DNA of 64,000 nucleotides. Origin: Candidatus Binatia bacterium (GTDB taxonomy: Bacteria > Desulfobacterota > Binatia > HRBIN30). Positions 25,141 through 36,064 of the stretch are shown piece by piece. The stretch lies in NCBI GenBank assembly GCA_026415395.1, contig JAOAHD010000010.1, positions 62,001-126,000 on the forward strand. Direction: 5' to 3'. Each line of letters begins with the position of its first letter. The stretch's first letter is position 1. Under the pieces are notes generated by a model, which worked only from the letters and a program-made list of their open reading frames with translations, searched no databases and was not told the origin of the DNA. Both the position numbers and the translations under genes were made by a program.

Positions 25141-25874
25141 TTCGATACTCGGGCTTGGCGGAATCTACCCACGTTGGTCAAGCCCGCTGCGCACCGACCC
25201 CCACCTCTCCAGGACAACCGTTGAAGAACTGCTCCGAGGCACTGGCGAGCACTCCAACGTCTACGTGGTGCCTTTCAGCTCAGATGTTCGCTGCGCCCGA
25301 GGCTTCGTCGGCTCGCGCGGTACCGGTTCTCGACGAGCGCTAACTCTGGCCCGAGCTGTTTCTCCGAACTTGCGGAAATGATCTCCGAAGACGTCGGAGG
25401 AAATCACCTCTCTTCCTTCTCGCCGTACCGCTCTTTCCCTCTACACCCGCACGCCCCCTGGTTTCCCGAGCCGTGGCTCTGCGATGGGATGGTCTGGCTG
25501 ACCAATCTGTACCATGCGAAGGAAACCGAGGGCGAAAGTGCACCCGACTCCATTCGCCCCAGTGAGCACGGCCCCTTTGGAGTCCCCCGCGCTCCCCAGC
25601 TGCCACCGCCGAGATCCAGCGGCGTGCGCTAGCTTCTCATGTCTCCTCGTTTCGTGCCCCTCACGGCGCCGCGGGAGCAAACCGAGTGCATACGATTTCT
25701 GAATGTACGAATGAGCCGGGCCAATCTTTCGCATCGGCCAGAAACGACAACCACACGGGCTGCAGTCCCGCCCGACCGGTCGGTCGCCACCCAGGCGGCA
25801 CAGCGTTTGTTAGGTGGTTTCGGCGTGCGAGCAGTTCGCCCGCTCGAAAATCACAAGGCAAGGAGGGAAAGGAC
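25141..25874. other. Long intergenic region between divergent genes
   Basis: About 730 bases without a convincing gene. It contains a hairpin at 25379-25406 (CTCCGA/TCGGAG with a five-base loop, extended by TGAT/ATCA), two copies of TCTCCGAA (25361 and 25382) and a 12-base palindrome near 25772. The end carries a strong AGGAGG-type ribosome binding site for the diiron gene. Short open frames here lack protein-like composition. Confidence 0.5.
25772..25783. repeat. Perfect 12-base palindrome CCGACCGGTCGG
   Basis: This palindrome lies about 90 bases upstream of the first diiron gene, a usual place for an operator. It is short and GC-rich, so chance occurrence cannot be excluded. Confidence 0.35.
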
Positions 25875-26759
25875 ATGGCGGACTTTTTAGCGGCCTACTC
25901 GATTCAAAATTGGCTCGAGTCGTGTCCCCAAGGGTACCTCATGGGGACCGTGTATGGCCATCGGCCAGGCGAGGAGGAGCCGGCAGCGCTCATGGAAAAC
26001 GACATCCTGCGTGAGGAGGCGATTCGCACGACCGTGCAGTTGGTGGTGGGCGAGCGTTGCGCGCTGGCGGCCTCTTCCGGGCTGATCAACGCAGCGCCGG
26101 ACGAAGCGAGTAAGCGTTTCCTTGCCACGCAAACACTGGACGAGGCTCGTCACGTCGAAATCTTCACCCAGCGGCTCCTCGATCTCGGGGTTCCCAAGCA
26201 GGACATCGAGAGCACGATTCAGCATTTTGCCAATCCAAATTTGGTGAAGTTCGCCGAGGTGCTGTTGGAAAAAGTCGATAAAAAGGATTTTGTGGCAGGC
26301 GTCGTCGGGCAAAACATCGTACTCGAGGGCATGGCGTTCAGCGTGTTCGAGATGATGTATGCCATTTCCGAGCCCACGAACCCGAAATTTGCCCACACGC
26401 TTTCTGGCACAATCGCCGACGAGCGGCGGCACGTGGGCTTCGGCGAAAACCGCATTGGTTCTCTGATCAAGCAACACCCCGAGCGGAAACCCGACATTGA
26501 AAAGCTACAAAAAGAAATGTCCTACTGGATGCTCGCCACCTTTGCCGATGCCTTCCGCAACAATCCCGCACGTGCGGAATTCAAGCGGATCGAAGTGGAG
26601 CTCGGCCGGGCCGGCGTTCATGCCCAGTGGCAAGGGGCCGACTTGCTCACCATGGAACCCGAGGAAATGGAGCAGCTCCTGGCAGACACGGTTTTGAAAG
26701 AGTTCAAAATCCGCCTCGGGCGCATTGGCATCGAATACCAAACCCCTGCTCGCCCGTAA
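25875..26759 (+). CDS. Ferritin-like diiron protein A
   Basis: The 294-residue helical protein carries a full set of diiron carboxylate-bridge ligands: E60, E90-x2-H93 (DEARH), E151 (VLEGMAF) and E183-x2-H186 (DERRH). Spacings of 30, 58 and 32 residues fit ferritin-like oxidases such as R2-like oxidases or aldehyde-deformylating oxygenase better than ribonucleotide reductase R2. The exact reaction is unknown; an O2-dependent oxidation of a hydrophobic substrate is plausible. ATG 25875 follows AGGAGGGAAAGGAC. It is the first of three genes, with a paralogue 33 bases downstream. Confidence 0.8.
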   Translation: MADFLAAYSIQNWLESCPQGYLMGTVYGHRPGEEEPAALMENDILREEAIRTTVQLVVGERCALAASSGLINAAPDEASKRFLATQTLDEARHVEIFTQRLLDLGVPKQDIESTIQHFANPNLVKFAEVLLEKVDKKDFVAGVVGQNIVLEGMAFSVFEMMYAISEPTNPKFAHTLSGTIADERRHVGFGENRIGSLIKQHPERKPDIEKLQKEMSYWMLATFADAFRNNPARAEFKRIEVELGRAGVHAQWQGADLLTMEPEEMEQLLADTVLKEFKIRLGRIGIEYQTPARP

Positions 26760-26792
26760 TTCTTCCATTCGTGGATCACCGAGGGCCGACGC

Positions 26793-27590
26793 ATGCCGCC
26801 TCCTACCAATGAAGGGGAAACGCGGACGGAGCTTCACGACCTGCCGCCTGAGGTCTTCTATGAGCAGGTTCACTCCTTTGAGTTCTGGTTCCAAGCCGTT
26901 CAGGGTTACCTATCCAACAAGAGTTACGGCGTAGACCCGAACATTACAGCGCATGCTCTGCCGGATTTAGACCGCGATCGCCTGGTTACCGTGCTGTGCA
27001 ACTACTGCGTCGGGGAAACTGCAGCGTTAGAGGGCGCGAGTGGTTTGATCGGGATCGCGCCAAACCGCCAGACAAAGATCTTTCTCTCCACGCAAGTGGT
27101 CGATGAGGGTCGCCATCTCGAGGTGTTCCTGCATCGCCTGCAGATGCTCGGTGTGGCCGATCCAGAACGCGAAGTCGAACGGCGAGCGAGTCGGAGCTTA
27201 CTGCTCTTCAAGCGCCGGCTGCTCGAGCTGGTGCACGGCAAGGACTGGGAGGCCGCGATCTTCGCCCAAAACGTAATCCTCGAGTCGTTAGAGTTCACGG
27301 TATTTCAAAGCCACGCGCGGGAGGCGGATCCGGTAACGCGCGATCTTCTACTCGGGATCATCAAAGACGAACGCCGGCACATCGGCTTCGGTGAAAATGA
27401 ACTCGGCCGCCGCCTACGCTTGGCTCCGCATACCCGCGCCCGGCTGGGTCAGGTCAAGCGAGAGCTCGATCATCTAGTCTTGGACACCCTCGAAGAAACA
27501 CTCCTCGAGGTAGGAGCTGATGTCTCCGAGAGGGACAAACTCGGTCGCGCGTACTTAGAAGCAGCAGCGCGATTGGGGCTGGAGTCATGA
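26793..27590 (+). CDS. Ferritin-like diiron protein B, paralogue of A
   Basis: The 265-residue protein repeats the architecture of its upstream neighbour with ligands E75, E105-x2-H108 (DEGRH), E164 (VILESLEF) and E193-x2-H196 (DERRH). The block DERRH(I/V)GFGEN is shared by both, which points to an old tandem duplication. Spacings are 30, 56 and 29. Both copies keep all ligands, so both may bind iron; they could form a heterodimer. The stop overlaps the next start (ATGA). Confidence 0.8.
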   Translation: MPPPTNEGETRTELHDLPPEVFYEQVHSFEFWFQAVQGYLSNKSYGVDPNITAHALPDLDRDRLVTVLCNYCVGETAALEGASGLIGIAPNRQTKIFLSTQVVDEGRHLEVFLHRLQMLGVADPEREVERRASRSLLLFKRRLLELVHGKDWEAAIFAQNVILESLEFTVFQSHAREADPVTRDLLLGIIKDERRHIGFGENELGRRLRLAPHTRARLGQVKRELDHLVLDTLEETLLEVGADVSERDKLGRAYLEAAARLGLES

Positions 27591-27892
27591 CCACTACTTT
27601 GGAGGAAGACGTACGAATTGAAGAAGGCGACAGCCGACCACGCCAGCGATTCGACCTGGAAGACACGGGCTTCGACGAGGTGCCGCCTCGCTTTCGCAAA
27701 TTCTATCGGCGGTGGAAGGGGCCCGGCGATCAGCTCGGTCCAAACGAAGTGATCTGCCCGGTGTGCAAAGTGGTGATCCGCTCAACGCGAGAGCTGCGCC
27801 CCGGCGACCGCGTCTACTGCATGCCCTGCATGTCGCGCTTGATCATCGTCCGCGGTGAGGACGGGCGCCTCGAAGCACGCGTAGCTTACTGA
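27587..27892 (+). CDS. Small zinc-ribbon protein linked to the diiron pair
   Basis: No named family was recognised. The 101-residue protein has an acidic N-terminal half and a zinc-ribbon half with C57-x2-C60 and C78-x2-C81 (ICPVCKVV, YCMPCMSRL). It might bind zinc or a rubredoxin-like iron; in the latter case it could pass electrons to the diiron proteins, which is speculation from position. Its start overlaps the stop of diiron gene B, so translation is likely coupled. Confidence 0.75.
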   Translation: MTTTLEEDVRIEEGDSRPRQRFDLEDTGFDEVPPRFRKFYRRWKGPGDQLGPNEVICPVCKVVIRSTRELRPGDRVYCMPCMSRLIIVRGEDGRLEARVAY

Positions 27893-31784: not shown

Positions 31785-31823
31785 TTGTCGAGTGAGGCCA
31801 GCAGTGGCCTAACCGGGGAGGCA

Positions 31824-34169
31824 ATGCCAGTGAAAGAACAGGTGCATCACGAAACTCCGGTCATCGATCTCGGTCGGGCCGTCGAAGAGCGGTACTTGGC
31901 GTATGCGCTCAGTGTCGTCACTTCGCGGGCACTTCCCGACGTACGTGACGGGCTTAAGCCCGTGCAGCGCCGCATTCTATACGCCATGTTCCAAAACCTC
32001 CGCCTCACCGCCGCGGCACGGCCGCGGAAGTCAGCAGCGGTCGTCGGAGAAGTGCTCGGCAAGTACCACCCCCACGGCGACCTGGCAGCGTACGAAGCCA
32101 TGGTGCGCATGGCCCAGCCGTTCGCCATGCGCTACCCACTGGTGCACGGTGAGGGGAATTTTGGCTCCCTCGACGGCGACAGCCCCGCTGCCATGCGTTA
32201 CACGGAAGCGCGCCTTACACCGATCGCCGAGGAACTCCTACGCGACGTGCGTGAAGAAACCGTTGACTTCCGCGACAACTATGACTCCACGTTGCGCGAA
32301 CCGATCGTGCTGCCTGCGGCCATCCCACAGCTCTTGATCAACGGCAGCACCGGTATTGCGGTCGGCATGGCAACGAACATCCCTCCCCACAACCTCAAGG
32401 AAGTGGTGGATGCGATGGTTGCGTTAGTGCGCGACCCGAAACTCGAAACCAAAGACCTGTGTCGCTTTATCAAAGGTCCGGACTTCCCTACGGGTGGCGA
32501 GATTCTCAATAGCCGAGCCGAGCTGAGGCGAATTTACGAGGAAGGCCAGGGCCCGATTCGCCTGCGCGGTCAGTTCAAGGTCGAAAGCAGCGGCCGGCGT
32601 CGTTACGTGGTCATTACCTCGGTACCGTACACGACAAACAAGGCGAAAATTGTCGAGGAAATTGCCGAGCACATCGCCAGCCGCAAATTACCGCTGGCCA
32701 CCGACGTGCGCGACGAGTCCACTGACGACGTGCGGATCGTTGTTGAGCTCAAAGGCGATGCCTCCCCTGAAGCGGTAATGGCATACCTGTTTAAACACAC
32801 GAGCTTACAAATTACTTACCACGCCAACTTCACAGCTTTGGTTCCCACCGCCAATCCGGGAATCGGCCAACCCCAACGGCTGAGCTTGAAAGAGCTCTGC
32901 CAACACTTTCTCGATTTCCGCTTCCAAGTTGTCACGCGGCGCTTGGAGTACGAACTCAAACAACTTCGGGCCCGGCTGCACATCTTGGCTGGTTTCCTCA
33001 AGCTGTTTAGCGATCTCGACCGCGCCCTCCGGATCATCCGTAACGCTGCCTCGCGTGAAGACGCGCGGCAGCGCCTTATGGATGCCTTTGGCCTGGATAC
33101 GGAACAGGCAGATGCAATACTCGACACCCGCCTGTACCAGCTTTCTCGCCTCGAGATCGGCCGGATCCAACAGGAGCAAAAGGAAAAGGCAGAACGCGCG
33201 AAGGAAATTGAGCGGCTGCTTGCTCGCCCCCAAGCGCGCTGGAAGATCGTTGAACATGAGCTGCTGGCGGTTGCCCAACGTTACGGTGACCCCCGGCGCA
33301 CTCAACTGCGCGCCGGTGCGGAACTCGTGTACGACGCGGAGGCGTACGTCGTGCACGAAGACGCGGTGGTCGTCATCACTCGCGATGGCTGGATGAAGAG
33401 ACTCGGCGAATTGAAGGATCCGAGTTCCACTCGGGTCCGCGAAGGAGATCACGTGCAATGGGTTCTGCGGGGCACCACCAAGGACAACCTTGCTCTGTTC
33501 ACGAACCATGGCTCCTTATACGTGGTGAAGGTGCTCCAAGTTCCAGCCACCACGGGCTACGGCGAACCCGTGCAATCGATCTTGAATTTCGGTGACGGCG
33601 AACGGGTCATTGCCGCCACGCTCACCAAAGGCGGAAATGGTGCAGAGGACGATTCTTCTCCAGGCAGCTGGGTCGCTATCACTGCCGCCGGCCTAGGCGC
33701 GCGTGTGAAACCGGAGATGAGCGAGACGACGAAAAACGGCCGTCGCTACGCGCGCCCCAAAGAGGGCGATGAGATTGCAGCCGTCGTTCCCCTGACTGGC
33801 GAAGTGTGCACTGTAGCGACCTCCGCCGGCTACGTGCTCTCGTTTCCCAGCAACGAGTTACCTGAATTGGCTGGAGCTGGCCGAGGGGTGTGGGCGATCC
33901 GCGTGAGTCCTGGAGACCGCGTGGTCGGTGCAGTCTGCCACAGCCCCGACCACCCGCCCATCGCCATCGACGAGCAAGGCGAGAGCCGCAAGCTCCAAAT
34001 GCCCGAACTTGGCCATCGCGGGCAAAAGGGCCGACCCACGTTGAAACGGTTCAAACCGGTTGCCCTGGTGCCGCGCGACCACGATGCGAGCGCGCCCAAT
34101 GCGCCCACCGATGGCCAACCAGCAAGACAGCTTTCTTTGCAACCTCAAGCCCCAGCAAAGAAACCATGA
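31824..34169 (+). CDS. parC: DNA topoisomerase IV subunit A
   Basis: The 781-residue type IIA topoisomerase A subunit decatenates daughter chromosomes with ParE. It has the breakage-reunion core ([28 protein letters not shown]) with the catalytic Tyr in AAMRYTEAR (Y126), and a C-terminal beta-pinwheel. A GyrA box (QRRGGKG) is absent, which favours ParC over GyrA. ATG 31824 stands only two bases after GGGGAGG; GTG 31830 has better spacing and TTG 31785 is also in frame, so the start is uncertain by a few codons. The stop overlaps parE (ATGA). Confidence 0.92.
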
Positions 34170-36064
34170 GTCGGAAGTACACAGCCAAAGACATTACCGT
34201 CTTGGAAGGTCTCGAGCCGGTAAGGAAACGCCCCGGCATGTACATTGGCGGCGTCGACCGCGCCGGGCTCCACCACCTGCTCTGGGAAATTCTAGACAAC
34301 GCTGTCGATGAAGCCATCAACGGTTACTGCGACGAGATCACCGTCACCCTGCACGAAGACGGCACCACCGTAACCGTTACAGACAATGGCCGCGGCATTC
34401 CGGTCGACGAGCACCCGAAGTACAAGCGACCGGCGTTGGAACTGATCCTCACCACGCTTCATGCTGGTGGCAAATTCGAGAATCAAAACTATTACCACTC
34501 TGGAGGCCTGCACGGAGTCGGCGCATCGGTCGTGACTGCGCTTTCTTCCTGGTTGATTGCCCGGGTCAAACGCGACGGCTTCCAGTGGGAACAAGAGTTC
34601 TCCCGGGGCACCGCCAAAACCAAGCTGCAACAGCGCGGCCCCGCTCGTGGCACGGGAACTTCTATCACGTTCACCCCAGACCCTGACATCTTCCCAAACC
34701 CTAAGTTCGACTCCGCTTGGATCCGCGAGCGGCTGGAAGCCCGCTCCTTCCTCCACCGCGGCTTGCGCCTGATCTTCGAAGACCGGACAACGGGTAGCCG
34801 CGAGGTGTTCGCCCACGAACGCGGCATTGCCGAGTATGTCGAGAAACTTTTGCAACAATCCGGTGCGCAAATCGTGGCGGACGCCATTTACCTCGAGCGG
34901 CGTGACGGTCTGATCGTCGAATGCGCCCTGGGTTGGACGACAGCCACTAGTGAGCGCGTGCAGTCCTACGTCAACGGTGTGCCCACACCGGCCGGGGGCA
35001 CCCATGAAAACGGCTTCAAAGCCGGGTTGAGCAAGGCGGTGCGGAACTACCTGGCGGTGCAAAGTCTCGTGCCCAAGGGCGTAACCGTGGCTGCCGAGGA
35101 CACCCGTGAAGGTCTGGTGGGGGTGCTGAGTGTGTACCTGCAGCAGCCGCAGTTCCAGGGCCAGACCAAAGACCGGCTCAACAATCCCGAGGTCACAGCC
35201 CCGATCGACAACTTTATCCGCACCTCGCTGGAGAACTACCTCCTGCAGAATCCTACGCAGGCACGGGCCATCGCCCAGCGTGTGATCTTGGCGGCTCGCG
35301 CACGACTGGCCTCGCGAGCCGCCGCGGAAAGCGTCCAGCGGAAAACCTCCGTTTCTCACCGCCTCAATCTTCCGGGTAAGCTGGCGGACTGCAGTTCCAC
35401 CGACCCGCGCGTGAGCGAACTCTTCATTGTCGAGGGGGACTCCGCAGGGGGTTCGGCCAAGCAGGCTCGAGATCGGGAGTTTCAAGCCATCCTTCCGCTG
35501 CGCGGGAAAGTCCTCAATGCGGAGCAGGCCTCGGCAACGAAAGTGTTTTCCAACAAGGAGCTCAACGATATCATCTCGGCGCTGGGCTGCGGCGTGGGCA
35601 AGGACTTCGATCCGAGCAAGCTCCGCTATCACAAGGTGTGCTTGTTAATGGATGCGGACTCGGACGGACATCATATTTGCACGTTGCTCCTCACATTCTT
35701 GTACCGCCAGCTCCCCGAGCTCATCCGCCGTGGGCACGCTTATATCGCACAACCGCCTCTTTATAAGGTCGAGATCGGTAAAGACGTTCATTGGGCGTAC
35801 ACAGACGAGGAAAAAGAGCGCCTGGTGACCAGCGCCAACGGGCGACCGGTGCTTGTGCAACGCTTCAAGGGCCTCGGGGAAATGAACCCGGCAACCTTAA
35901 AAGAAACCACCCTCGACCCGCGCAAACGCGTGCTGTTTCGGGTGGAAGTTGTGGATGATGAGCGAACCGACCAAACCATCCAGACCCTGCTCGGCCGCGA
36001 AGTGGAGCCACGCTTTCGCTTCATCATGGAACGTGCCCGCCAAGTGCAGGACCTGGACGTTTAG
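34166..36064 (+). CDS. parE: DNA topoisomerase IV subunit B
   Basis: The 632-residue ATPase subunit shows the GHKL ATP site ([33 protein letters not shown]) and the TOPRIM region ([40 protein letters not shown]). It ends in the usual [15 protein letters not shown]-type tail. Linkage to parC by a four-base overlap and the length support ParE rather than GyrB; in a genome with only one such pair the same genes would serve as gyrase. Confidence 0.93.

Follow-up and report, generated by a model that had tools for sequence, protein, structure and literature searches.

Among the ferritin-like diiron enzymes, the aldehyde-deformylating oxygenase (ADO) is a single protein that works with acyl-ACP (acyl carrier protein) reductase, and the multicomponent monooxygenases (soluble methane monooxygenase, sMMO, and the toluene and phenol hydroxylases) combine two paralogous ferritin-like subunits, one of them without a metal site, with a small subunit. 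Published passages describe VlmB as an azoxy-pathway enzyme working with VlmO (PMC11705231), identify the cross-link pair of the R2-like oxidase R2lox as V72 and Y162 (PMC6399176) and place a seventh histidine of the AurF/CmlI-type N-oxygenases four residues before the last glutamate ligand (H225 and E229 in Dob3; PMC12154687). Here we describe a trio of adjacent genes, A, B and C, on a 64,000-nucleotide stretch (the window) of contig JAOAHD010000010.1 from a Candidatus Binatia bacterium. A and B encode paralogous ferritin-like diiron-type proteins and C a zinc-ribbon-type protein. A is preceded by sites of three unrelated low-oxygen or nitric oxide (NO) regulators, and each kind of site is enriched within a clade of its own. 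From these sequence data we give an even chance to A, B and C being subunits of an undescribed diiron oxidase/oxygenase complex that is made under scarce oxygen or NO.

The original prediction, made from the window alone, held that A and B are paralogues that each keep six diiron ligand residues (E, ExxH, E, ExxH) with spacings of 30/58/32 and 30/56/29, and that the third gene overlaps B by ATGA and encodes a C-x2-C-x17-C-x2-C site. All of these statements were borne out. The six residues are present and could be mapped in both proteins, the spacings are exact when the middle one is counted from the histidine, and the overlap and the cysteine motif are both in the sequence. Comparison of the A and B profiles (8.4e-55; 36% identity over 222 columns) placed the ligands in register. 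Alignments of 77 A rows (A5), 81 B rows (A6) and 88 C rows (A4) showed the six ligand positions to be invariant in 81/81 B rows and 76/77 A rows, the sole exception (L112) carrying undetermined residues, and the four cysteines of C to be kept in 87/88. In a tree rooted on two AurF-like proteins, A and B each have their own clade (FastTree support 0.79 and 0.98); the two clades join at 0.99, and four distant B-like proteins fall outside them. These distant proteins, found at other loci, gave no clue to the function of the trio. In two related genomes a distant B-like diiron-type protein lies beside genes that by eye resemble acyl-CoA carboxylase (L164:5675-8010 and L167:5366-10410).

Absence of the trio from relatives had been set beforehand as one outcome that would refute the prediction, which survived this test. 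Two short patterns from C were used to scan one genome for every species; this gave 91 stretches that encode a relative of C, from which 80 named loci were kept, and in 72 of these A, B and C stand side by side. The loci come mostly from deltas and Binatota, Myxococcota, Acidimicrobiia and alpha- and gammaproteobacteria, and the titles of 77 of the 80 denote metagenome-assembled genomes. Among the eight exceptions, one (L083) retains between A and C no more than a 54-residue remnant of B, three (L084, L093 and L141) have a B–C pair with A elsewhere in the genome, and four (L116, L140, L146 and L152) are interrupted by contig ends. B and C overlap by 4 nt at 69/80 junctions (ATGA in 42, GTGA in 27). 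At one locus a same-strand run of A, B, C and an acyl-CoA dehydrogenase gene continues into a second copy of A (L120:4272-8426). Within 58 genomes, the host and its relatives, a strong match to C was found in 18; three further matches at ∼0.003–0.004 were taken as chance. The three genes are together in 15 of 18 regions, made up of the window and 17 fetched from relatives. Two genomes of the same class (G019, 99% complete, and G057, 98% complete) have A and C without B, a search for B being negative elsewhere in both, and another (G052) yielded only a partial C. Since the ligands and cysteines are invariant or nearly so and the genes lie side by side at so many loci, the observation amounts to more than chance.

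We examined up to 300 nt before A at 77 loci, using the 300 nt before other called genes at the same loci as controls. Sigma-54 promoters follow TGGCAC-N5-TTGC and FNR sites TTGAY-N4-RTCAA. The DosR consensus, TTSGGGACTWWAGTCCCSAA, was taken from the relevant passage of PMC2275270 and sought as GGGACYWWRGTCCC. Allowing at most one mismatch, the sigma-54 site was found at 25/49 delta/Binatota/Myxococcota-type loci compared with 22/300 controls (p 1.8e-12), the FNR site at 9/11 alpha/gammaproteobacterial-type loci compared with 0/42 (p 1.2e-8) and the DosR site at 8/17 Acidimicrobiia-type loci compared with 0/101 (p 3.3e-8). At this threshold each site occurs at 0 or 1 loci outside its own clade; at two mismatches sigma-54 rises slightly in the proteobacterial group (3/11 versus 1/42, p 0.025). 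For one locus with two copies of A (L120) the operon copy was used in the clade test. Two of the 49 loci (L060 and L078) are the same contig, and L060 was dropped from the NmpR, pooled and collapsed counts. When the 76 distinct loci were pooled without clade lists, the figures were 26/76 versus 24/425 for sigma-54 (p 7e-11), 10/76 versus 5/425 for FNR (p 6e-6) and 8/76 versus 0/425 for DosR (p 2e-7), and when A was collapsed at 85% identity they were 21/40, 7/9 and 5/13, respectively. In the collapsed set the sigma-54 site is directional, with 21 sense and 6 antisense occurrences, and lies 44–84 nt before the start codon in 19/21. With no more than one mismatch allowed, 35/62 non-redundant loci have one or more of the three sites. 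A Crp box was found in 0/77 upstream regions, and the bare GG-N10-GC pattern occurred at shuffle level.

The candidate sigma-54 site of the window is weak taken alone and is supported by relatives, a two-mismatch site preceding A in HR30 (L077) and a one-mismatch site in the other genome of the same genus (L078). In one Acidimicrobiia-type genome (G061) an exact-pattern search returned five DosR-type boxes, compared with 0 and 1 for the reversed-pattern control. They precede the trio, a response regulator that among solved structures is closest to DevR/DosR of M. tuberculosis (1.4e-60), a cupredoxin gene, a small unknown frame and a gene recognised by eye as isoleucyl-tRNA-synthetase-like, where the box looks incidental. 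Six further genomes were searched, and in G058, G060 and G063 the box of the trio is the only match. Cupredoxin-domain genes lie behind exact DosR-type boxes in two Acidimicrobiia-type genomes (G061 and G062; L170:246-830 and L175:849-1490).

The host genome comprises 3.69 Mb in 25 contigs, the window lying on contig C10 with a GC content of ∼61%. The nearest named relatives in the search with C are Bacterium HR30 and a Candidatus Binatia metagenome bin. The gap between A and B is 33 nt. Adjacent genes for the A and B subunits of a type II topoisomerase, recognised by eye, lie downstream of the trio at 31785-36064.

Table 1. Genes of the trio and candidate upstream elements, in window coordinates.
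Feature	Position	Strand	Details
Gene A, ferritin-like diiron-type protein, 294 aa	25875..26759	+	Ligand positions E60, E90, H93, E151, E183, H186
Gene B, ferritin-like diiron-type paralogue of A, 265 aa	26793..27590	+	Ligand positions E75, E105, H108, E164, E193, H196
Gene C, zinc-ribbon-type protein, 101 aa	27587..27892	+	C57-x2-C60-x17-C78-x2-C81; its ATG overlaps the TGA stop of B as ATGA
Candidate ribosome-binding site of A, AAGGAGG	25860..25866	+	Seen directly in the sequence
Candidate sigma-54-type -24/-12 element, CGGCACAGCGTTTGTT	25796..25811	+	Two mismatches to TGGCAC-N5-TTGC; 79 nt before A
Candidate palindromic operator, CCGACCGGTCGGTCG	25772..25786	n/a	103 nt before A

We next consider how the three proteins compare with described families. 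None of A, B and C reaches a cut-off in Pfam or NCBIfam, and PHROGs gave no match. The AlphaFold model of A (pLDDT 89, pTM 0.87) best matches VlmB (PDB 8wvr and 6d9f; Foldseek 8.6e-9; Z 28.8, rmsd 2.8, 281 aligned residues, 23% identity), followed by R2lox (Z ∼24) and ADO (Z ∼23.6). VlmB is also the best sequence match of A (1.8e-15), and in the profile alignment each of the six ligand residues of A falls opposite a VlmB residue of the same type. The second outcome set as refuting, ligand residues that do not meet at one site, was addressed indirectly and for A only, through this superposition and alignment. Compared by sequence only, the B profile matches ADO (2.7e-9) and VlmB (3.2e-8). The original prediction had also inferred a heteromeric O2-dependent oxidase with a metalloprotein partner that could carry electrons or bind nucleic acid, a reading that is partly supported. 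The likeness to R2lox and ADO that had been proposed holds, with VlmB added, for ferritin-like proteins that are conserved as a unit beside a four-cysteine protein, and a heteromeric complex is a fair inference from that unit.

Among the nearest families, membership of R2lox, the AurF-type N-oxygenases and ADO failed. Although A shares the ferritin-like fold and six ligand positions with VlmB, identity is low; to our knowledge VlmB has no paralogous partner and no zinc ribbon, whereas A has both B and C. The six dimetal ligand positions of R2lox are common to A and B. Mapping by offset from E69 and E167, which we take to be ligands of R2lox, puts A63 and Q146 of A, and A78 and Q159 of B, at the positions of the Tyr–Val pair, all invariant or at least 90% conserved; R2lox membership fails on these cross-link residues, and the best scores of 31.9 bits for A and 19.2 for B do not reach the NCBIfam cut-off of 194. 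AurF membership fails on the seventh histidine, which is absent from A (T179, invariant) and B (I or V at 189 in 15 rows), and the Pfam AurF gathering score of 29.6 is not reached by A (13.7) or B (15.0). B shares with ADO the FGE that follows the last ligands, but ADO membership fails on curated scores, with A at 20.2 and B at 23.4 for Pfam Ald_deCOase (gathering 28) and at 18.1 and 22.1 for NCBIfam (222.65). The multicomponent monooxygenases resemble the trio in having two paralogous ferritin-like subunits and a small subunit; they differ in that B, like A, is complete in its ligands. No reductase or effector genes of their kind were found in the operon, and no reductase cluster is among the recurrent neighbours. 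A stretch of 28 residues near the C-terminus of B (window 27494-27580) resembles a designed ankyrin-repeat protein (2.9e-9), which is probably chance, the segment varying in relatives. C is modelled as a compact beta-rich domain (pLDDT 87.5, pTM 0.75), and its nearest solved fold is the zinc-ribbon protein LysW, a weak match (Foldseek 0.05; Z 5.3, rmsd 1.9, 46 residues). C may thus have the zinc-ribbon fold of LysW; it is encoded with oxidase-type proteins and is without the LysW carrier tail.

The genes around the trio were tallied as raw counts in 89 trio loci, one representative per class being named. Recurrent neighbours are CBS proteins (12 loci), NtrC-type sigma-54 regulators (11), Crp/Fnr proteins (7), hemerythrins (7 and 3), NnrS (4) and Usp (4). 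By tblastn a protoglobin domain is present in 10/89 loci, and the kinase domain was confirmed by Pfam for one of these (L141) and for the copy in the host genome. A neighbour cluster of 13 kinases was not used as a protoglobin count, as it mixes in ordinary kinases, one of them in the window. Any protoglobin match was found in only 20/58 related genomes, and the distribution between genomes with the trio (11/18) and others (9/40) is suggestive only, some matches being short non-kinase proteins. In the host genome rpoN is present, and genes for a CBS protein, an NtrC-type regulator and a protoglobin histidine kinase are immediate neighbours on the same strand of contig C12 (L159:5270-8680). This set is like NmpRSTU of Myxococcus xanthus, an NtrC-like/protoglobin-kinase system described in PMC11841059 as controlling CBS, Usp, cbb3 oxidase, HemN and hemerythrin genes; one NmpR-controlled gene is reported there to rise under hypoxia, and the word 'ferritin' is absent from the main text of that paper. 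Sensor and companion genes of the types found near the trio (CBS, Usp and hemerythrin) also belong to the NmpRSTU, FNR and DosR regulons. NmpRSTU differs in that its published site is not enriched before A. The regulators of the trio in the host genome are likely sigma-54 with the unlinked CBS/NtrC-type/globin-kinase set, perhaps together with a TetR-type repressor.

The last element comes from the palindrome CCGACCGGTCGGTCG, which in two relatives of the same genus precedes A by 111 and 80 nt and has variants at a few other loci. Its exact 14-mer, CGACCGGTCGGTCG, was found at only two places in the host genome (G000), the second preceding a TetR gene that overlaps a gene for an AurF-like diiron protein of 367 aa (L006:452-2229, contig C21). 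Because the 14-mer is shared with this pair, a TetR-type repressor common to a second diiron gene likely acts on A here.

No pathway gene is fixed beside the trio in the 17 fetched relative regions or the 80 named loci, which suggests that substrate and reductant are not supplied by a pathway of their own. We favour an oxidase or oxygenase that uses O2, since enzymes of this type are the closest in fold and sequence. On this reading the regulatory sites would be used, and low oxygen or NO would induce the trio. A and B would form a heteromer in which both paralogues have a working dimetal site, and C would dock on A–B in a structural or regulatory role or, should it hold iron, to transfer electrons. 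With electrons from a general donor of the cell, the dimetal sites would activate O2 even where little is present, and the substrate would be widely available, most likely hydrophobic or small organic, as for VlmB, R2lox and ADO. In a fuller form, to which we tentatively assign a chance just short of even, such a heteromer, with both dimetal sites working and C as a zinc-ribbon (or Fe-Cys4) subunit, would be an undescribed core low-oxygen/NO-response enzyme common to Binatota, Myxococcota, Acidimicrobiia and Proteobacteria that sigma-54/globin-kinase, FNR and DosR circuits recruited independently. The trio is a module of a known superfamily, whose upstream sites suggest when it is used rather than what it makes or removes.

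Several points weigh against this reading. The regulatory motifs were spotted by eye in these same sequences and tested afterwards, and the clade lists were drawn from record titles after the sites had been seen, with ambiguous 'Proteobacteria' (for example, L083) and 'bacterium' records assigned by judgement. At one mismatch, 27/62 non-redundant loci have none of the three sites, and the site in the window itself has two, a level reached at 38/49 loci and 61/300 controls. At two mismatches FNR is not enriched in the pooled set (16/76 versus 78/425), a first, loose DosR pattern gave 7/77 versus 15/429, and the NmpR site GCGCA-N5-TGCGC gave 2/48 versus 13/297 at one mismatch and 17/48 versus 123/297 at two. 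At four loci (L183, L184, L187 and L192) A is without B and C, neither being found in ∼1.5 kb of downstream DNA. Acyl-CoA dehydrogenase (9), WS/DGAT (9) and P450 (7) genes among the neighbours, again raw counts, could point to lipid metabolism; we set them aside because such genes are common in genomes of this kind. Finally, the synthesis of most O2-using enzymes is not known to rise when O2 is low, hypoxia-induced desaturases being a precedent for those that do.

The chief rival, which we regard as unlikely, is a reductive scavenger in which the diiron sites would reduce NO, peroxide or residual O2 and C would serve as a rubredoxin-like Fe(Cys)4 donor, the whole being a split analogue of rubrerythrin. 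It holds this place because the regulation looks like a response to gas stress and because the trio has no constant pathway neighbour; the recurrent hemerythrin, NnrS and Crp/Fnr neighbours and the near-invariant cysteines of C are also in keeping with it. However, the nearest folds and sequences are the substrate oxidases VlmB, R2lox and ADO and not rubrerythrins, and for Pfam Rubrerythrin (cut-off 22.8) A scores 13.6 bits and B is unlisted up to E 1. The cysteine spacing of C is 17, compared with 12 in rubrerythrin, and its best solved fold is that of a zinc-ribbon protein. Less probable still is an enzyme acting on lipids or hydrocarbons, by desaturation, hydroxylation or a deformylation like that of ADO, that would remodel lipids at low oxygen. 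The ADO matches of the B profile, the resemblance of A to the ADO and R2lox folds, the WS/DGAT, acyl-CoA dehydrogenase and P450 genes near some loci and the palindrome shared with the TetR/AurF-like pair all speak for such an enzyme, whereas the scores below both Ald_deCOase cut-offs and the commonness of acyl-CoA dehydrogenase and P450 genes in such genomes speak against it.

Two further explanations seem to us very improbable. An RNA or tRNA hydroxylase, in which A and B would be MiaE-type enzymes and the zinc ribbon and basic stretch of C (of KKYRKFYRKW type, and conserved) would bind RNA, is suggested by a MiaE_2 match of B (E 0.0012, 19.0 bits) that falls below the cut-off of 25.2, and it sits poorly with the carrier protein that is the nearest solved fold of C and with the neighbour clusters seen, among which no translation gene recurs. 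An N-oxygenase or azoxy-type enzyme of a VlmB-like natural-product pathway would account for VlmB being the best match of A in sequence and fold, but meets the low identity of that match, the missing seventh histidine, regulatory sites of stress type and neighbour clusters in which no biosynthetic cluster recurs; VlmO, VlmA and VlmH of the azoxy cluster were not recognised among the recurrent neighbours, no genome-wide search having been made.

We found no apparent description of this module in the open-licence literature, among the matches listed and as far as titles and the beginnings of abstracts go, and the paper on Binatota genomes (PMC8262859) does not contain 'ferritin', 'diiron' or 'hypoxi' in its main text. 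Beyond the original prediction, the present analysis adds the oxygen/NO-type regulatory sites and the loci at which A occurs with C but without B, or alone. Model bacteria have had their hypoxia and NO regulons mapped thoroughly, and a new enzyme in them is rare. A trio that carries sites for three unrelated oxygen/NO sensors probably has a function that is needed when oxygen falls, in lineages for which nearly all the genomes seen here were assembled from metagenomes. The trio gives a direct route to testing that function, and may be a ferritin-like enzyme whose two paralogous subunits both keep an active site.

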